A DNA stretch of 23,082 nt from a virus: positions 1 to 23,082 of the IMG/VR virus record IMGVR_UViG_3300030389_001472; one strand, written 5' to 3'. Every line of letters starts with the position of its first letter. Within the stretch, counting starts at the first letter, position 1. The notes under the pieces are model-generated. The model made no database searches. It was not told the DNA's origin and worked only from the letters and a program-made list of their open reading frames with translations. The position numbers and the translations under genes were made by a program. Positions 1,960-22,555 of the stretch are shown here, piece after piece.

Positions 1960-3159
1960 ATGGGACTATTTGACTTCCTACGTTCAGAAAAGCGTGGAGA
2001 TAATTTTTTAAGAGCCGTGTTTGGTGGTTATGGTGCAGCTAACAAAACGGCAGTTAATAGAGATACATCTTTAACATTTAGTGCAGTCTTTGCTTGTGTT
2101 AGAGTTATCAGCGAATCAATAGCAAGTCTACCTATAAAAGTTTACAGAGTCGAGGAGGATGACGATAAGATTACTGACGTCAGCCATCCAATATACCGAC
2201 TACTAGCTCGTAATCCTAACGAGTATATGACACCATACACATTCCTAGATACTCTAATGACCAACTTATTGCTAGAGGGGAATGCGTATTTTTATATTGA
2301 GAGAGATAGTTCAGCTAGACCAATATCTCTTATTCCTATCAACCCAAAAGATGTTAAAGTGATTAAGCACGATGGTCAAATATTTTATGATATAAAAGAC
2401 TATGAGATAGGAGTAATGAAAGAGGATATGTTACACTTTTTCAACTTATCATTTAATGGTTATGAAGGAGTAAGCGTATTGAAAGCACAGAACACAACAA
2501 TAGCAACTTCTATTGCTGCTAATGATACTGCAAATAGTTATCTAGGAAACTCTGCTCAAGTTGGTGGAGTAATTAAACATCCTGGCAAACTAAGTAAAGA
2601 AGCAGTAGCAAGATTAAAAAACTCTTGGAATCAAAACTATTCAGGCTCATTTGTATCTGGTAAGACTGCTATTCTTGAGGAGGGTATGACATTTGAGCAA
2701 ACTAACATTGATGCAAATAAGTATCAACTTTTAGAAACTCGTAGATTCCAAATAGAGGAAGTGGCAAGAATTTTTAAAGTGCCATTATCGTTGATTGGTC
2801 ACTTAGAGAAAGCTGCTAACTACTCATCTATTGAGGCTTTGAGTATTGACTTCGTAAGATTTACTCTGATGCCTTATATGGTTATGGTAGAGCAAGAGCT
2901 TAACAGAAAGTTATTTAGAGATAGAGAGTTTGGCTTGTTTAGTATTAAGCTAGATGCAAAGGCTTTACTTAGAGGAGATAGTTCATCTCGTGCAAGTTAT
3001 TACAGAGAGATGGCTAGTATCGGTGCTTTGTCTATTAATGAGATAAGACGAATGGAGGACTTGAATAGAGTTGGACCAGAGGGTGACCAGTTGTTTATGC
3101 CGTTAAATTTTGCTCCTATTGGAGACGTAGAAGAAGAAGACAATGCCGATACCGAGTAA
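1960..3159 (+). CDS. Portal protein, HK97 family
   Basis: This 399-residue protein is the dodecameric ring at the capsid vertex through which DNA enters and leaves. It has the family's typical length and features: an early segment with CVRVISESIASLPIKVYR, a run through HPIYRLLARNPNEYMTPYTF, a clip/stem region around GGVIKHPGKLSKEAVARL, and the conserved LETRRFQIEEVARIFKVPLS near residue 260. The acidic C-terminus is common in portals. It starts at an ATG 19 nt beyond a predicted promoter, without a Shine-Dalgarno sequence. Its end overlaps the protease gene by 17 nt. It sits between terL and the protease as in HK97. Confidence 0.96.
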   Translation: MGLFDFLRSEKRGDNFLRAVFGGYGAANKTAVNRDTSLTFSAVFACVRVISESIASLPIKVYRVEEDDDKITDVSHPIYRLLARNPNEYMTPYTFLDTLMTNLLLEGNAYFYIERDSSARPISLIPINPKDVKVIKHDGQIFYDIKDYEIGVMKEDMLHFFNLSFNGYEGVSVLKAQNTTIATSIAANDTANSYLGNSAQVGGVIKHPGKLSKEAVARLKNSWNQNYSGSFVSGKTAILEEGMTFEQTNIDANKYQLLETRRFQIEEVARIFKVPLSLIGHLEKAANYSSIEALSIDFVRFTLMPYMVMVEQELNRKLFRDREFGLFSIKLDAKALLRGDSSSRASYYREMASIGALSINEIRRMEDLNRVGPEGDQLFMPLNFAPIGDVEEEDNADTE

Positions 3160-5035
3160 AGAAGAAAACGAAACAAATGAGGAATTCATCGAGAGATGTA
3201 TGTCCGATGAGTTTATGAAAGAGTATGATGACAACGACCAACGTCTAGCAGTATGTTATGCTCAACTAGAAGATGATGAGGAAAGACAAACAAACTTTCC
3301 AAACAAGGGTGATGATAAAAAGATAAGTCTTAGAAATAGTGAAGAACCACAATTTGATTTTGACTTCGCTAAAACTATAAAAGAACAAACTCCAGAGATT
3401 TGGAAAGCTGGAGGTAACATAAGAGGGAATGAGGCTTTTATGTTATGGGGTCGAGCAAGAGATGGTCAAGATACGGAAGCTATCAGAGAATGGATAAAAG
3501 AGAGAGAGTCTTGGATTAAAAGACACTTTGAAGATGGTAAACAATTCAAAGGAGATACAGAGCCAAACCTTTCAAATGTAGGTGGTGTAGTTGCTCAAAT
3601 TAAATGGGGAACGATTGGAACATTAGGAGAGCAAGGAATGAAAGACGTAATTTTAGAACTGACTAAAAAGCTAGAAGGTAAGAAAGAAGAAAATCAAGTT
3701 AGTGCTAAAGTAAAAAAAGGATTAGAGAACAAAGTTGAAAAACATAATGAAGAAATAAAAGAGCTGGATTTAGCTTGGAATGGTCGTACTACTTACGCTG
3801 AACTTGTAAAAGTATTTGAGAGAGGTGTAGGAGCTTACAATACCAATCCTGGCTCGGTAAGACCTAATGTTACAAGTGCAGAACAATGGGCAATGGCTAG
3901 AGTCAATTCCTTTTTATTTGCTCTTAAAAAAGGTAGATTTCAAGGTGGTAAGCACGATACAGACTTACTACCCGACAATCATCCAGTAAAAAAAGAAATG
4001 GAAGAAAATAATAGATTTATGAAAAAGCACGATTTAAGACACATCCAAAAGATTGAGGAAACAGATGACTCAATCATTATTACTTATGATAAGCTAACGG
4101 ATGAAATGGAAGAAAGCTATCACCAAGATAAAGACGAGAAGCGTGAAAAGGTCGGCTCAATGATTGTAGATGGTATAGAGTTACCATTATACGACACAAA
4201 AGAAGAAGCTGAGGCTGAGGCTGAAAAACTTGGAGGAAATGGCTCTCACGAGCATACTATGGATGGCAAGACTTACTATATGCCATTCGATACACACGAC
4301 CAAGCAAAAGAAGCTCTAAAAGATAAAGATATGAGTGACCACACTCCAGACCACGATGAGGATGAAATGAAAAGACCATTATATATGAGAAACAATCCAA
4401 ACGCTGAGGTCAGAACATTTGACGTTCAAGACTTAGAACTAAGGATGGATGGAGATAAGCCAACTGTTGTAGGCTATGGTGCAGTCTTTAATTCAGAGTC
4501 TAATGACTTAGGAGGTTTTAGAGAGTATATTGCTCCAGGAGCTTTTGATGGTCGTCTAGAAGATGACGTAAGATTCTTAGTTAATCACGATGCTAACTTA
4601 ATACTAGCTAGAACAACTAATGGTACGCTAAGACTTTCTGTCGATGAGAAAGGGTTGAGATATGAAGCTGATTTACCAAACACATCAACTGCTAGAGATT
4701 TGATGGAACTATTAAAGAATGGAACTATTAGTCAATCTAGCTTTGCATTTACTGTTGAAGAAGATAGTTGGGAAGTAAAAGACGGAATGAATATAAGAAC
4801 TATCGACAAAGTTTCTCAACTTTACGATGTAAGCTCAGTAACTTATCCAGCATATAATGAAGCTAGTAGTTCTGTCGCATTACGTTCTATGGAAGAATGG
4901 CAAGAAAAAGAAAAAGCTAAAAAACTAGAAGAAAGTTTAGAGGCTGAAAAATTAGAGGGCATAAAAGAAGAAGAAGATTTAAAGCAACGCTCCCTCAATG
5001 AAATGCGTTTAAAAATCTTAAAAAATAAATATTAA
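3143..5035 (+). CDS. HK97-family prohead protease with long N-terminal extra domains
   Basis: The C-terminal part (about residues 420-585) is a prohead serine protease that would cleave the capsid delta domain and scaffold during maturation. It contains GYGAVFN, a His in FLVNHDANL (H482) and a Ser in ISQSSFAF (S532/533), matching the expected His and Ser. At 630 residues it is about three times the usual protease length. The added part holds an N-terminal segment with CYAQ near 38 and a domain at 70-175 (KAGGNIRGNEAFMLWGRARD). A further domain at 208-280 contains RGVGAYNTNPGSVRPNVTSA and HDTDLLPDNHP, followed by an acidic segment rich in His near 368-405. A charged tail (585-630) may form a helix or scaffold. 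The extra domains resemble segments I associate with other phage structural polyproteins, function unknown. No separate scaffold gene is present, so this protein may also provide it (inference). Confidence 0.93.
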   Translation: MPIPSKEENETNEEFIERCMSDEFMKEYDDNDQRLAVCYAQLEDDEERQTNFPNKGDDKKISLRNSEEPQFDFDFAKTIKEQTPEIWKAGGNIRGNEAFMLWGRARDGQDTEAIREWIKERESWIKRHFEDGKQFKGDTEPNLSNVGGVVAQIKWGTIGTLGEQGMKDVILELTKKLEGKKEENQVSAKVKKGLENKVEKHNEEIKELDLAWNGRTTYAELVKVFERGVGAYNTNPGSVRPNVTSAEQWAMARVNSFLFALKKGRFQGGKHDTDLLPDNHPVKKEMEENNRFMKKHDLRHIQKIEETDDSIIITYDKLTDEMEESYHQDKDEKREKVGSMIVDGIELPLYDTKEEAEAEAEKLGGNGSHEHTMDGKTYYMPFDTHDQAKEALKDKDMSDHTPDHDEDEMKRPLYMRNNPNAEVRTFDVQDLELRMDGDKPTVVGYGAVFNSESNDLGGFREYIAPGAFDGRLEDDVRFLVNHDANLILARTTNGTLRLSVDEKGLRYEADLPNTSTARDLMELLKNGTISQSSFAFTVEEDSWEVKDGMNIRTIDKVSQLYDVSSVTYPAYNEASSSVALRSMEEWQEKEKAKKLEESLEAEKLEGIKEEEDLKQRSLNEMRLKILKNKY

Positions 5036-5052
5036 TATTAATTTTCTATAAA

Positions 5053-6258
5053 ATGAAAACATCAAAACTTTATAAAGAAGAAAGAGCTGAGGTAATCGAA
5101 AAGATGGAAAGTCTAGTATCTTCTGCTGAAGGTCGTGATATGACATCTGATGAGCAAGTTAGCTTTGATTCTTTAAACGAAAAAGTAGAGGAGTTAAATA
5201 AGATGGCAGTACGTGCTGAGTCTTTTGAGAAACTTCAAGCTACAAAAGCTGTTAAAGAAGTAACAGAAAACACTCCAAAAGAAGTTAGAGATTATTCTTT
5301 CCAAGATGCTATGAAAGCTGCTTACTCTGGTAAACTAGAAGGATTAGTTAAAGAAATGGATTCTGAAGCTCGTAACGAGGCTCGTTATACTGGTCAAATG
5401 TATAAAGGTATAGCAATACCAAGTTCTGTACTAGAAGCAAGAGCAATCACAACTTCTAATGTAAACGAGGTTGAGACTATGAGTTTTACAGACCAGTTAC
5501 AAGCAAACTTAGTTTTAGCTAGTGCTGGTGCTAACTTTTACTCAGGAGTTAAAAATATGAAATTCCCAGTTATTAGTGGTATTACTACTACTTTCGTTGG
5601 CGAAACTGGAGGCTCAGTTTCTGCTGCTGGTTCTGCTTCAAGTTTAACACTTTCTCCTCAGAAATGTATCTCTATTGTTGAGATTTCTGCTGAGGCTATG
5701 ACTCAAAATGCTGGTGTAGAAGCTGCAATCCGTAGAAATATGGCTGCTTCAGTTGCTGCTCAGTTAGAGAAAAACTTATTAGCTGCTGCTGATAACTCAG
5801 ATGGTGGTCCTCAGTCAATCTTAGCTGATGCTGCTGATGGTGGAGCTACTCTTGATGCTGCTGCTCTTTTAGCTATGGAATCAACAGTTTTAGGTAACAA
5901 TGTACCATTATTAGGTGGTAGATTCGCTTATCTATGTAACTCTGACGCTTTAGCTGTAATTAAAGGTTTAGCTCAAGTTGCTTCTGTTTCACCAATCTAT
6001 GATAACAGAGATAAGACAATCAACTCTTACTTTAGCTTTGTATCTTCTAACGTAGGTAATAAAGCAAGTAATTTTGATTCTGTTTTATTCGGTGATTTCT
6101 CAAGAGTACACATTGCTCAGTTTGGTGGTTTAGACGTATTGTTTGACCCATATACTTCTGCAGCATCTGGTGTTGGTAGAATGATTGCTACTTCTTTAGT
6201 TGATGGTAATGCTGTTGATAATGGAACTGCATTTGTAGAAATACAAACTACATCATAA
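5053..6258 (+). CDS. Major capsid protein, HK97 gp5-like
   Basis: This 401-residue protein is the main capsid shell subunit. Residues 1 to about 85 are charged and predicted helical, as in the HK97 delta (scaffolding) domain. From about 115 onward the sequence is hydrophobic and Gly/Ala/Ser rich, with family-like stretches GETGGSVSAAGSASSLTLSP and VEISAEAMTQNAGVEAAIRR and a C-terminal FGDFSRVHIAQFGGLDVLFD. It follows the protease and ends just before a strong terminator. Its leader (about 5025-5052) is A/T only and contains near-palindromic AATATTAATATT, in keeping with a non-Shine-Dalgarno start for a highly expressed gene. The delta-domain cleavage site cannot be placed from sequence alone. 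Confidence 0.96.
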   Translation: MKTSKLYKEERAEVIEKMESLVSSAEGRDMTSDEQVSFDSLNEKVEELNKMAVRAESFEKLQATKAVKEVTENTPKEVRDYSFQDAMKAAYSGKLEGLVKEMDSEARNEARYTGQMYKGIAIPSSVLEARAITTSNVNEVETMSFTDQLQANLVLASAGANFYSGVKNMKFPVISGITTTFVGETGGSVSAAGSASSLTLSPQKCISIVEISAEAMTQNAGVEAAIRRNMAASVAAQLEKNLLAAADNSDGGPQSILADAADGGATLDAAALLAMESTVLGNNVPLLGGRFAYLCNSDALAVIKGLAQVASVSPIYDNRDKTINSYFSFVSSNVGNKASNFDSVLFGDFSRVHIAQFGGLDVLFDPYTSAASGVGRMIATSLVDGNAVDNGTAFVEIQTTS

Positions 6259-6272
6259 TTGATTATTTTAAC

Positions 6273-6311
6273 GGAGGGAGTGGAAACACTCTCTCCATTA
6301 ATTTTTTTTTA
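6273..6311 (+). terminator. Rho-independent terminator after the capsid gene
   Basis: GGAGGGAGTG (6273-6282), a GAAA tetraloop and CACTCTCTCC (6287-6296) form a 10-bp stem with one G-T wobble. A run of nine T (6302-6310) follows after a short A/T spacer. It lies between the capsid stop and the next ATG at 6313. Because the remaining head genes have no obvious new promoter, it probably acts as a partial terminator that lowers expression downstream of the capsid gene. Confidence 0.85.
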
Positions 6312-6312
6312 A

Positions 6313-6942
6313 ATGGAATACTACAACTACAACTTCAATACATTAAGAGGTACTGACTTTGTCCCTTATGGTAAGTTAGTTCTAAAGACTGGTCCAACTT
6401 CTACTGTTATATCTTTAGCAGAAGCTAAGACATTTTTAAGAATAGACTCAGACTATGATGATGACGATAGCTATATCACGTCATTAATTAATGTTGCTAC
6501 TAGTGTAGTTGAGGAATTTACTAGACGTAGATTAGTTACACAAACATTTAATATTTTTTATGATGAGTTTCCTCCTTACATTGACTTACAAGTAGGTGAG
6601 GTTGCTAGTGTTACTCACATCAAGTATTATGATACCAGCAATTCATTACAAACTTTAGCAGCATCAAATTATGATGTAGATACAAAGATAAGACCTGGAA
6701 GAATATATGAATCAGAAAACGGAGACTTCCCAGACACTTTTGAAAGACCAAACGCAGTTGAAGTTGAGTTTGTAGTTGGTGGTGCTGCTAGTGATGTTCC
6801 AGCTCCAATAGTACAAGCTATTTATATTATTGTTGGTCGTTACTATGAGAATCGACAAGACGTTGTAATGGGTACACAAGTAAATGAACTCCCATTGATG
6901 GTAGAACACTTACTAACTCCTTATAGATTGCTAGAACTATGA
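6313..6942 (+). CDS. Head-tail connector protein, gp6-like
   Basis: This 209-residue protein is probably the adaptor ring that docks under the portal. It contains the signature of the phage gp6/phiE125 gp8-type connectors: ISLAEAKTFLRID followed by ITSLINVATSVVEEFTRRRL (residues about 33-75). A beta-rich middle follows, then a C-terminal helix with IVQAIYIIVGRYYENRQDVV and PLMVEHLLTPYR. The start ATG comes three bases after the T-run of the capsid terminator. It overlaps the next gene by 4 nt. Confidence 0.9.
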   Translation: MEYYNYNFNTLRGTDFVPYGKLVLKTGPTSTVISLAEAKTFLRIDSDYDDDDSYITSLINVATSVVEEFTRRRLVTQTFNIFYDEFPPYIDLQVGEVASVTHIKYYDTSNSLQTLAASNYDVDTKIRPGRIYESENGDFPDTFERPNAVEVEFVVGGAASDVPAPIVQAIYIIVGRYYENRQDVVMGTQVNELPLMVEHLLTPYRLLEL

Positions 6943-7277
6943 TAATAGGCAAACTAGATAGAAAGTTAAAACTCTATAAAAGAACTATAACTAATAATTT
7001 ATATGGCGAAAGAGAAGTGAATAGTAGCTCTTTTGTGACTATCTATGGCAGCTTTGATTTTAAAAGTGGCGATACAAAATATGATGCTGATGCATTAATC
7101 AACAAACAAAATATAGAATGTCTAGTAAGATTTAGAACAGACATTGGAATAAGTCCAGAATATGCTATTACTTTCGGCTCTACGGTGTACTCAATCAAAA
7201 GCATCAAAGAGGTAGGAAGAAAAGATAAATTAATACTCACGTTATTGGAAACCAACGCAGAAGATTTAGCAGTATAA
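6939..7277 (+). CDS. Head closure / head-tail adaptor protein
   Basis: This 112-residue protein resembles the Phage_H_T_join family (SPP1 gp16-like), which closes the head below the connector. It starts with GKLDRKLKLYKRTITNNLYG, and its beta-strand pattern ends in VYSIKSIKEVGRKDKLILTL, which is typical of the family. The gene lies between the connector and the gp10-like gene and overlaps both by a few bases (ATGATAATAGG junction upstream, ATG at 7277 downstream). Confidence 0.87.
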   Translation: MIIGKLDRKLKLYKRTITNNLYGEREVNSSSFVTIYGSFDFKSGDTKYDADALINKQNIECLVRFRTDIGISPEYAITFGSTVYSIKSIKEVGRKDKLILTLLETNAEDLAV

Positions 7278-7756
7278 TGATAGTATCAGCTCAAATAGAC
7301 GAAAAAGAATTAAAACAAATCATAAAAGATTTGGATAGGTTATTCCCTAGCTCAGACACTAAGCTAAGAACTACTCTTAGAAGTGCTTTGAGAAAGTCTG
7401 CAACACCTTTGAGAAGTGAGCTTAGAACTAATATAAAGACCGACATAAAACCAACAAGACCAGGAGCTGAGTCTGATAAAACTGGTCAGCTAGTAAAGTC
7501 AATAGGTATAATTAATGGTAAAACCAAAGGTGGAAGAAAGCCTAGCGTATATGTAGGACCAAGAGTGAAAGGTAGTTTTTCATCTGCTAATAAGACTGGA
7601 TTTTACTTTTTCTTTCACGAGTATGGTTTTTATAATGCTCCAGCTTTGAGAATGCTTGACAAGACAGCAAGAGCAAAAGGGCAACAAGTTATGGATAGTG
7701 TAATCTCAAAACTTAAAACTATTATAGAAAAACGATTTGCAAAAAATATGAAATAA
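7277..7756 (+). CDS. HK97 gp10-like neck/tail component
   Basis: This 159-residue protein is a likely member of the HK97 gp10 family, small basic proteins at the head-tail junction. Support comes from ALRKSATPLRSELRTNI, a central VGPRVKGSFSSANKTGFYFF and the HEYGFYNAPALRMLDKTARA segment; a 'H-x-x-EyG...PA.pFm.pA'-like pattern near the C-terminus is characteristic. It is one base out of overlap register with the preceding and following genes (7277 and 7756 shared), indicating coupled translation. Confidence 0.87.
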   Translation: MIVSAQIDEKELKQIIKDLDRLFPSSDTKLRTTLRSALRKSATPLRSELRTNIKTDIKPTRPGAESDKTGQLVKSIGIINGKTKGGRKPSVYVGPRVKGSFSSANKTGFYFFFHEYGFYNAPALRMLDKTARAKGQQVMDSVISKLKTIIEKRFAKNMK

Positions 7757-18946: not shown

Positions 18947-19637
18947 AGTAGAGAAGTCTAAGAACTTTACCACAATCAATAACGAGTTTATCTTTAATAA
19001 GAACTTATCGTTAAAAGCTAAGGGGTTGCTCTGTCACCTCTTGGCTTTGCCTAACGACTGGAAGTTATACGTAGAGGAGGTTGAAAAATGGAGTACAGAT
19101 GGCAAATCCTCTATTTACTCTGCTTTTAAAGAGCTGACATCTAATGGCTATATGAAACGAGAGCAAATTAGAGATAAAGGAAAGATTGTTAGCTGGGATT
19201 ATATAGTCTATGAAAAACCACATACCGATTTTCAAGAAATAGAAAATCAAGATGTAGAAATTCTAGATGTAGAAAATCAACCACTACTAAATACTAATAA
19301 TACTAAAGACTTAAATAAACTAAATACTAATAATACTAAAACAGAAAGGGATTATCCTTTTGAATTAAATTTAGAGGCTTGGAATTTATGGAAGGACTTT
19401 AGAAAAGAGCAATTCAGAACTTCTTACAAACCATTAGGCGAAGCAGCAGCTATTTCTAAGCTATTAAGAATCTCCAACAACAACAAAGAACACCAGGCGC
19501 AAATTATCCAGCAATCTATTGAGAATGGTTGGAAGGGATTATTTGAGCTTAAAACAGAAAAACAAAACAAAGTTCAAAAGATATTAAGCAACTATCACAA
19601 AGGACTTGAAATGATAAACAAAGAATACAATGAATAA
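18933..19637 (+). CDS. Phage replication initiator (O-like, winged helix)
   Basis: The N-terminal 95 residues of this 234-residue protein form a winged-helix domain of the type found in phage replication proteins (NFTTINNEFIFNKNLSLKAK, LLALPNDWKLYVEEVE, then DGKSSIYSAFKELTSNGYMK). Residues about 97-140 are a polar linker with two LNTNNTK repeats. The C-terminal part (EAWNLWKDFRKEQFRTSYKP, then IQQSIENGWKGLFELK) resembles regions that contact helicase or helicase loader. As in lambda O, the linker coding sequence carries direct repeats that could be the origin this protein binds. Neighbours include an SSB-like and a DnaA-like protein. Confidence 0.86.
   Translation: MKRIRVEKSKNFTTINNEFIFNKNLSLKAKGLLCHLLALPNDWKLYVEEVEKWSTDGKSSIYSAFKELTSNGYMKREQIRDKGKIVSWDYIVYEKPHTDFQEIENQDVEILDVENQPLLNTNNTKDLNKLNTNNTKTERDYPFELNLEAWNLWKDFRKEQFRTSYKPLGEAAAISKLLRISNNNKEHQAQIIQQSIENGWKGLFELKTEKQNKVQKILSNYHKGLEMINKEYNE
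19240..19340 (+). repeat. Iteron-like direct repeats, candidate replication origin
   Basis: A 21-bp sequence starting CTAAATACTAATAATACT is present twice without change at 19287-19307 and 19320-19340, 33 bp apart. Just upstream, TAGAAAATCAA occurs at 19240-19250 and 19270-19280, and GATGTAGAAA at 19251-19260 and 19266-19275. The block is almost entirely A/T and lies in the linker part of the initiator gene, where lambdoid phages carry their origin iterons. Confidence 0.65.
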
Positions 19638-20328
19638 AAAATATATTTATAAAAATCAAGAGTCTTTATGGGGCGAATCAGAGTGTATAGGATTTGGCAC
19701 TTATGATTTTTATGTTAAGGAAATAGATAGAAAATTAGCAAACGAAATAATTATTAAAAATCATTATTCTAAAAAAGTTTATAATGGAACTTATATACAT
19801 TTAGGGGTTTTTCATAATGAAAAATTAAAAGGGGTTTTACAATATGGTTATGCTATGAATCCTGCATCTTGTGGTAGTGTAGTTAAAGGTACTAATAAAA
19901 ATGAATATTTAGAATTGAATAGGATGTGGATAGATGATGATTGTAAACAATACGCAGAAAGTCAAGCTATAAGTTATTCAATTAAATATATTAAGAAAAA
20001 ATTAAAAAAAATTAAATGGATTCAGTCTTTTGCAGACGAAAGATGTGGAGGTTTTGGAATAGTATATCAAGCTTGTTCTTTTGATTATTTTGGAGAACAT
20101 ACAAATAAATTTTGGGAGCTAGATGGAGAAACATTTCATAATTCAATTATGACAAGTGAAAAAGCTGGTCGTAGAGGTTATAATTTATTAAATAATCCAT
20201 ACAATAAAGATAGAATCATCAAACACGAGCTTAGACAATTTAGATATATAAAATTTATAGACAAAAGGGAAAAGAAAAACTGTTTATTAAAACAAAAACC
20301 ATATTTAAAGCATTATAACAATGACTAA
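19630..20328 (+). CDS. Mom-like DNA modification protein (anti-restriction)
   Basis: This 232-residue protein follows the Mom family, close to the about 240 residues of Mu Mom. Mu Mom is a GNAT-like enzyme that converts adenine to N6-carbamoylmethyladenine and so protects phage DNA from many restriction enzymes. The family pattern is visible: NHYSKK (44-49), HLGVFHNEKLKGVLQYGYAM, YLELNRMWIDDD (93-104), AESQAISYSIKYIKK, then SFADERCGGFGIVYQACSFD and YFGE (133-156). The His-Tyr pair (45-46) and Asp136 are the residues I would expect to matter. The gene is visibly richer in AAA, AAT and TTA codons than its neighbours, suggesting separate acquisition. It overlaps the initiator by 8 nt. Confidence 0.86.
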   Translation: MNKKYIYKNQESLWGESECIGFGTYDFYVKEIDRKLANEIIIKNHYSKKVYNGTYIHLGVFHNEKLKGVLQYGYAMNPASCGSVVKGTNKNEYLELNRMWIDDDCKQYAESQAISYSIKYIKKKLKKIKWIQSFADERCGGFGIVYQACSFDYFGEHTNKFWELDGETFHNSIMTSEKAGRRGYNLLNNPYNKDRIIKHELRQFRYIKFIDKREKKNCLLKQKPYLKHYNND

Positions 20329-20485: not shown

Positions 20486-20897
20486 GACTAATCAAGTGTG
20501 GTATCTATATGCACACAATATTAAAGAACTAAAAAGACAATGCTATGACGTTATATCTACGCTTTATGTTCAGCTAGGACAAGCTCCAGAAGCTGAGATA
20601 ATAGTTCAGATGACTAATCTATTCTGTAATGACTTAGCTACCAACTACGGCTCTATGGAACTAGAGGAGGTTAGATTTGCTTTAAACAAACACATAAGAG
20701 AGAACGATGGTCCACACTTTGTAAACGTACCAATGTGGAGTCAAGCGTTAAGAGATTATAAAAAATCTAAAGCATTAAAAAGACAGACTAATCAAATAGA
20801 CCAATATGAACTCTATAAAAAGCGTGTTGAGTCATTTAGCAAGACAATAGATAAAAGAGAGATAAAAAAGATAGGCAATGCCAACCACAATAAGTAA
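20472..20897 (+). CDS. 141-residue helical protein, unknown, possible replication accessory
   Basis: The protein shows a helical domain at about residues 15-95 with LFCNDLATNYGSMELEEVRF and ALNKHIREND, then FVNVPMWSQALRDYKKSK. This general layout (an acidic 'eE...A' helix followed by 'v..w...l..Y') appears in phage proteins of the replication region, but I cannot name a family. The C-terminal 45 residues are basic and coiled-coil-like. It overlaps the NinG-like gene by 20 nt. Confidence 0.72.
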   Translation: MTKNKTNQVWYLYAHNIKELKRQCYDVISTLYVQLGQAPEAEIIVQMTNLFCNDLATNYGSMELEEVRFALNKHIRENDGPHFVNVPMWSQALRDYKKSKALKRQTNQIDQYELYKKRVESFSKTIDKREIKKIGNANHNK

Positions 20898-21267
20898 ACT
20901 CAAAAAAAAGCTAGATAAATTATTTAGTGAGTACATAAGACGTAAAAATGCAGACCATTTAGGTTTTATAACTTGTTTCACTTGTGGAGTTAAAAAACAT
21001 TGGAAAGAGCAACAAGCTGGACACTTTCAAAGTAGAAGCCACCACTCTACTAGGTGGGATGAGATTAACGTTCAAGTTCAATGTGTTAAGTGCAATATGT
21101 ATAGACAAGGAGAGCAATATAAGTTTGGAATGTATTTAGACCAAAGGTTTGGAGATGGAACGGCAGATGAGTTAGAACACAGAGCAAAGACAATATTAAA
21201 ACTTAACAGAGTAGATTATGAAGAGGCAATCGAAAGGTATAAACAAAAAATTAGAGAGCTGGATTAA
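20878..21267 (+). CDS. NinG/Rap-like recombination protein
   Basis: This 129-residue protein resembles the NinG family (lambda Rap), a structure-specific nuclease acting on recombination intermediates. It has the zinc-binding pairs CFTC (33-36) and CVKC (69-72), with QAGHFQSRSHHSTRWDEINV and CNMYRQGEQYKFGMYLDQRF between and after them, as in the family. The N-terminal helix LKKKLDKLFSEYIRRKNAD also fits. It is shorter than lambda NinG (about 200 residues), with a reduced N-terminal part. It would work with the replication proteins upstream. Confidence 0.9.
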   Translation: MPTTISKLKKKLDKLFSEYIRRKNADHLGFITCFTCGVKKHWKEQQAGHFQSRSHHSTRWDEINVQVQCVKCNMYRQGEQYKFGMYLDQRFGDGTADELEHRAKTILKLNRVDYEEAIERYKQKIRELD

Positions 21268-22039: not shown

Positions 22040-22214
22040 CATTGAATTAAAAGTTGATGACACAGAATTACTAGACGAGGCTAAAGACCGAGCGATTGAT
22101 ACTTTGATTGATAGCTTAGAGGAATGGATAAATAACAATGGCATTCCTCCAATAATAAGTTTAGAGTATAAGCTACCAGAATACGATGACAACGATTTAG
22201 AATTTTTAAACTAA
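22017..22214 (+). CDS. 65-residue acidic protein, unknown
   Basis: The product (MKIIASVSIELKVDDTELLD, then AIDTLIDSLEEWINNNGIPP and a strand ending in EYDDNDLEFLN) is strongly acidic and mixed alpha/beta. Small acidic proteins of phages often mimic DNA or bind host enzymes, but nothing specific supports that here. Its stop shares a base with the HNH gene start (TAATG). Confidence 0.68.
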   Translation: MKIIASVSIELKVDDTELLDEAKDRAIDTLIDSLEEWINNNGIPPIISLEYKLPEYDDNDLEFLN

Positions 22215-22555
22215 TGCCTAATCTACCAAAGGGAAAGAAAAAGAAATGGATAGCAAGTAGTAAAAAGACTACTGGATTTACTGAAAAGCATAAGAGCGAT
22301 AATTATGACTTTTATAATAGTAGAGCTTGGAGAAACCTTAGAAAGTGGCACATAGAACGAGAGCCACATTGTAAATGGTGTACTGAGGAGGGCAAAGTAA
22401 ATTATAAAGATAAGATAATCATTGACCACATTATTGAGATAAAAGATGGTGGAGACAGTCTGAATCAAGATAACTTAATGACTTTATGTCTACCACATCA
22501 CAATCAGAAAACGGCGTGGGCAAAAGCAAAACGTAAAAGAAATGGCAAAGAGTAA
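22214..22555 (+). CDS. HNH endonuclease
   Basis: This 113-residue HNH nuclease is of the HK97 gp74-like type that assists terminase-driven DNA cutting. Visible are the zinc/structural pair CKWC (53-56), the catalytic DHI (71-73), the Asn of LNQDNLMTLC (84-92) and HHNQKTAW (95-102), giving H-N-H order. A basic N-terminus (KGKKKKWIASSKKTTGF) probably binds DNA. HNH genes of this kind usually sit next to terminase genes, so the gene may lie close to terS once the genome ends are joined. Confidence 0.93.
   Translation: MPNLPKGKKKKWIASSKKTTGFTEKHKSDNYDFYNSRAWRNLRKWHIEREPHCKWCTEEGKVNYKDKIIIDHIIEIKDGGDSLNQDNLMTLCLPHHNQKTAWAKAKRKRNGKE

Follow-up and report, generated by a model that had tools for sequence, protein, structure and literature searches.

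The N-terminal half of the prohead protease encoded in a 23-kb viral contig (the window, meaning the whole stretch of 23,082 nucleotides analysed here) consists of four modules, C, A, B and H, which are separate conserved units that recombine independently. The first ∼425 residues of this fused protein are real and under purifying selection. Most likely, the modules are not part of the protease itself and travel into the phage head as passengers. On balance, we favour by a little over even chances a reading in which they are prohead-lumen units brought in by a carrier head protein, perhaps to be released proteolytically and packaged.

Domain organization of the fused protein

The fused gene is a single uninterrupted frame of 630 codons (3143–5035, + strand), whose start codon sits within the final codons of the portal gene. 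The features of this region, in window coordinates, are as follows.

346–1917: terminase large subunit, first in the order terminase, portal, fused gene, capsid
1960–3159, + strand: portal protein, the last 17 bases overlapping the start of the fused gene
3143–5035, + strand: fused protein of 630 amino acids, four N-terminal modules plus the S78 prohead protease (open reading frame list, Pfam, NCBIfam)
3143–3286, + strand: module C, residues 1–48 (“ERCM...VCYAQ”), acidic, three helices predicted
3290–3682, + strand: module A, residues 50–180, a compact helical domain found at 224 loci
3698–3988, + strand: module B, residues 186–282, DUF5824 (Pfam PF19141)
4013–4147, + strand: variable linker, residues 291–335
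4148–4336, + strand: module H, residues 336–398 (HEH..DGKTYYMPF..H), DUF3721-like (Pfam PF12518)
4337–4414, + strand: charged linker, residues 399–424, poorly conserved
4433–4903, + strand: Peptidase_S78 prohead protease, residues 431–587 (Pfam, PHROG and NCBIfam profile searches)
5053–6258, + strand: major capsid protein, HK97 type, in its own gene in the window phage

The protease domain is recognized with a Pfam Peptidase_S78 match of 162.9 bits (E 9.6e-48; cut-off 21), and the NCBIfam profile TIGR01543 agrees, matching residues 441–577 with 113.5 bits against a cut-off of 59. Since S78 begins at residue 431, about 430 residues precede the protease, bearing out the long N-terminal part that had been described from the sequence. 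Residues His482 and Ser533 are invariant in 25 relatives and are putative catalytic residues, and a C-terminal helix is predicted after the protease domain.

The module boundaries were read from comparison of relatives. Module C is present in some relatives and absent in others. Its absence marks residue 50 as a sharp boundary, since in many of the relatives without C the protein starts with a methionine at exactly that position. Module C also occurs as stand-alone copies of 55 amino acids (L220 and L226) and C-terminal to A (L178). Module A carries the motif “FP..GDD..SLRNS...GGNIRGN...RE.W.RH...GVVAQ.KW” and belongs to no family in Pfam, PHROG or NCBIfam; residues 1–190 of the fused protein gave no credible family match in the same three libraries. 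No PHROG matched any of 43 diverse copies of the 50–180 domain. Module B passes the Pfam cut-off for DUF5824, with residues 212–265 scoring 27.0–28.1 bits against a cut-off of 25 over ∼50 of the 127 profile positions. Module H likewise passes for DUF3721, residues 350–385 scoring 27.7 bits (30.9 for the segment) against a cut-off of 27 over 32 of 33 positions, and it is found elsewhere on portals and at protease C-termini. Neither DUF has a known function, and no paper naming either was found in the literature searched.

The sequence motifs quoted in the original prediction lie at about residues 88–107, 227–243 and 369–381. Its two compact conserved domains correspond to A and B and are upheld by the structural model and the dN/dS values below; there are, however, four modules, and the first (residues 1–48) had been missed. 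What had been read as an acidic His-rich linker is instead the small conserved module H. In seven relatives (L035, L051, L060, L061, L067, L079 and L109), a P-loop kinase-like domain of ∼140 amino acids (G[AS]SCSGKST) is inserted between B and H; its match to AAA_33 is weak (E 0.009) and does not reach the cut-off.

The family call for the major capsid protein comes from homologous fusion proteins that match Phage_capsid, and head-tail and tail genes (functions assigned by inspection) follow the capsid gene. Nearly all gene starts checked in the window lack a Shine-Dalgarno match and are AU-rich upstream, which made a Shine-Dalgarno test for an internal protease start uninformative. Gene starts in Bacteroidota are of this kind, and the host of the window phage may belong to that phylum. 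Further along the window, positions 19630–20328 match the Mom family strongly (PF25680, E 6.3e-70), a DNA base-modification protein, suggesting that the phage protects its own DNA, and positions 20878–21267 and 22214–22555 encode a NinG-like recombination protein and an HNH endonuclease.

Conservation and selection

All 80 first-round relatives from IMG/VR retain residues 50–290 as far as their contigs extend; A and B are always kept among them, while C and H are variable. The dN/dS values are 0.01–0.13 for A, 0.06–0.18 for B and 0.06–0.20 for the protease, with the linkers looser. A and B are under purifying selection like that on the protease or stronger, and conservation within the fused protein is highest in A.

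The same fusion was found on more than 80 other contigs, and is therefore not a sequencing fusion, the alternative that the original prediction had named. Relatives with separate genes and intact starts do exist (L059, L062, L063, L073 and others), as would be expected if an error in sequencing or assembly had run two genes together, but more than 80 contigs, drawn from many samples, carry the fused frame intact, and dN/dS is low across the modules. We give an artefact practically no chance; the independent contigs rule it out, and the separate genes are a genuine alternative architecture.

Predicted structure

An AlphaFold2 model of A and B together, built with 72 sequences, has a mean pLDDT of 88.7 and shows two compact domains, both helical, with a short disordered segment between them at model residues 130–135. 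Prediction of the full-length protein reached a mean pLDDT of 59.5, too poor for fold searches. Searches against sequences of solved structures returned no match for B and, for A, one chance-level match only; A has no sequence match to R596, the mimivirus sulfhydryl oxidase. The predicted fold of A nevertheless aligns with residues 168–292 of R596 (PDB 3td7), nearly all of its C-terminal domain. The VIA-align Z-score is 7.6 over 113 residues (rmsd 4.0), and a Z below 8 can reflect a common helical arrangement. R596 does not appear among the matches listed by Foldseek for A. The C-terminal “ORFan” domain of R596 (residues 180–292) was reported by its authors as a new fold (PMC3509050). We regard the possible fold link between A and R596, which comes from a predicted model, as a lead only.

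Relatives and carriers of module A

Relatives are numerous among viruses. By tblastn, A and B occur at 46–50% identity in 183 Salinibacter ruber phages, inside a protein of 846 amino acids upstream of a capsid-like gene. One scan of IMG/VR found 242 relatives with A and B, and others found at least hundreds more of A and of B. With the strict patterns used, two loci were found among 84,980 cellular genomes, and module A looks mainly viral. Cultured cases are the Salinibacter phages and Roseobacter CRP-831.

The 224 A loci, a count of loci and not of independent phages, since some contigs were fetched twice, show ∼25 architectures. The window type is [C+]A+B[+H]+S78. Others on the protease are A+B+S78+capsid, A+S78 and A+B+P-loop+H+S78, together with S78+A and S78+B+A, in which the modules follow the protease. 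Portal-borne forms are Portal+A+MuF, Portal+B+A+MuF and Portal+H+A+B, and the stand-alone forms are A+B (303–360 amino acids), B+A and A (∼130 amino acids). Pfam finds no MuF domain in the window protein itself, although other phages have A fused to MuF. In a Verrucomicrobiales contig (L148, 7960–9141), a frameshift that is either real or a sequencing error interrupts module A of a portal-A-MuF protein.

At 218 of the 224 loci, the same few kilobases also hold a gene for a portal, protease, MuF or capsid protein. No head gene was seen at the remaining six, including L165, an 80-kb contig in which A is fused to a PAP2 phosphatase domain (4257–7571, 1104 amino acids) with no head gene seen within 5 kb of that protein.

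Two sets of relatives show natural swaps of the carrier. In L145, H, A and B sit at the portal C-terminus and the S78 protease is a separate gene of 227 amino acids, in agreement with the suggestion that the protease needs its C-terminal part only. In the L059 group, A and B form a gene of their own (306 amino acids), preceded by the portal and a DUF6712 gene. These phages have a ClpP-type protease (PF00574, E 2.6e-34) and, by the profiles used, an unrelated capsid protein, yet their A and B are ∼76% identical to the window copy. The stand-alone A+B protein ends in CPDGYEHQMPDGSWMCG..HGG, a possibly metal-binding motif, in the place where others have module H. A tree of A requires 15 carrier changes against a least possible four and places the stand-alone copies of the ClpP phages next to the window copy, although it is built on few columns and many of its forks are unresolved.

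A second module, A' (“RHEVDK”), occupies the same slot and has the same carriers as A, namely protease-capsid fusion, portal and portal-MuF. Its architectures include A'+S78+capsid, A'+B+S78+capsid and Portal+H+B+A'. It is present in the cultured Roseobacter CRP-831 and CRP-821, Synechococcus S-CBS3 and Vibrio phages, as well as in the portal of Halorubrum virus HATV-3 and the portal-MuF protein of HRTV-28. Two series of loci (L309–L388 and L389–L393) show A' to be very widespread, N-terminal in protease-capsid fusions and in archaeal virus portals. A and A' share no open reading frame in the loci examined. Homology between the two was considered and rejected, as their profile comparison is not significant (hhalign probability 3.4%), even if the two share a register in their best alignment.

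A proposed role inside the prohead

The carriers all face the prohead interior, whether protease, C-terminal end of the portal, MuF protein or N-terminal end of a capsid precursor of HK97 type, and from this we infer a lumenal place for the modules; adjacency to head genes alone is insufficient proof of such a position. Each carrier, which in the window phage would be the protease, would place its module inside the prohead. The maturation protease would then cut the flexible variable linkers and free the module, which would stay with the packaged DNA in the head and might enter the host with it. No cleavage site for an HK97-type protease was identified. As a guess by analogy with T4 internal proteins, the modules may associate with DNA or play a host-directed role early in infection. 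The kinase-like P-loop domain in the tail of some relatives would fit an enzyme cargo, and we counted it in favour of the cargo reading. The window protein matches no effector or defence family in Pfam, PHROG, NCBIfam or PADLOC, and a known defence or counter-defence family was set aside as a candidate when PADLOC gave no match. A search of the literature on Roseobacter protease-capsid fusions and on the virion proteins of S-CBS3 and HRTV-28 gave nothing usable and found no virion proteomics.

The main rival to the cargo reading is that A and B are assembly adaptors, docking modules by which protease, portal, MuF protein and capsid protein would find one another or the portal vertex, and whose work would end with maturation. 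The carriers are indeed head-assembly proteins, A is the most strongly conserved segment, and A and A' fill one slot and never occur together. The module is also N-terminal in S78-capsid fusions, where the scaffolding delta domain of HK97 would be. However, the same module accompanies unrelated proteases, portals and capsids at 75–80% identity, a related S78 protease goes without it in L145, and B alone is a small free gene away from annotated head genes in HTVC202P and C48C1. We therefore consider an adaptor role unlikely, although well short of negligible.

The function originally proposed was a scaffold, a portal- or DNA-associated module, or an internal virion protein. A portal-associated or internal virion protein fits the carriers found, and a scaffold fits them less well: some phages have the modules on the portal or in a gene of their own, forms that would give few copies. 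An N-terminal half acting as an internal prohead scaffold would agree with lumenal carriers, and internal proteases with scaffold-like extensions are known in other phages. Nevertheless, related phages do without the N-terminal half, and the window capsid protein itself starts with ∼100 charged residues that appear to resemble a delta domain. A scaffold thus seems very improbable.

DUF5824 outside the fused protein also bears on the cargo reading. Alone, it is a protein of 79–90 amino acids in Pelagibacter phage HTVC202P and phage C48C1, whose B genes are not beside annotated head genes, while in marine T4-like contigs it is often part of longer proteins. The tripeptide [LI]xE, the cleavage motif of the T4 prohead protease gp21, directly precedes the domain in 41 of 47 non-redundant cases from these contigs, and in 28 of the 34 longer proteins against 4.4 expected at random positions. 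A helix cap may be behind part of this signal; the spacing from motif to domain varies by two residues, which would favour a linker. T4-style targeting starts (M..F..[FL][IL].E), which some DUF5824 proteins of T4-like phages have, are weakly enriched (18 of 51 against 66 of 331 other open reading frames, p 0.014; p 0.12 with a stricter pattern), and we rejected them as a DUF5824 feature, such starts being present on many further proteins of the same phages. About one-fifth of the other open reading frames (those 66 of 331) in the T4-like marine contigs examined (L084, L085 and L234–L308) have such starts, and many proteins of these phages may be head-packaged.

Comparison with known systems

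The window protein shares its C-terminal domain and its position between portal and capsid genes with the HK97 family prohead protease (Peptidase_S78, TIGR01543), from which it differs by 430 extra N-terminal residues. For the proposed fate of the modules, one precedent is the internal head proteins of T4 (IPI–III and Alt), which are small and put into the prohead. T4 packages its internal proteins, trims them with the prohead protease and injects IPI into the host (PMC9958956). They have separate genes and an N-terminal targeting peptide of ∼10 residues, whereas a carrier bears the window modules, and the first residues of the window protein, MPIPSKEENETNEEFIERC, contain no T4-type targeting start. 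A second precedent is the polyvalent proteins, which are multi-domain like the window protein; additional domains on portal and MuF are believed to be packaged and then injected (Iyer et al., 2017; PMC5512222). In the portions of that study consulted here, the prohead protease is mentioned once and A, B, C and H are not among the domains described (Iyer et al., 2017).

Module A occurs in hundreds of viral contigs, many of them marine, yet is in none of the family libraries searched, and its carriers point to the head interior. Should the modules prove to be packaged and delivered, phages would have in carrier swapping a general means of loading proteins that calls for no dedicated targeting peptide, and this would account for many of the long proteins that databases label “portal”, “protease” or “capsid”. 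More broadly, and doubtfully at this stage, A, A' and B could belong to a large class of virus-specific cargo modules of the head lumen, most of them without a name, which move among portal, MuF, protease and capsid protein in the tailed viruses of bacteria and archaea and reach the host together with the DNA, A perhaps sharing a fold with a giant-virus enzyme domain. Internal head proteins and polyvalent proteins are already known; what is new here is the swapping of carriers by an unnamed and widespread module family.
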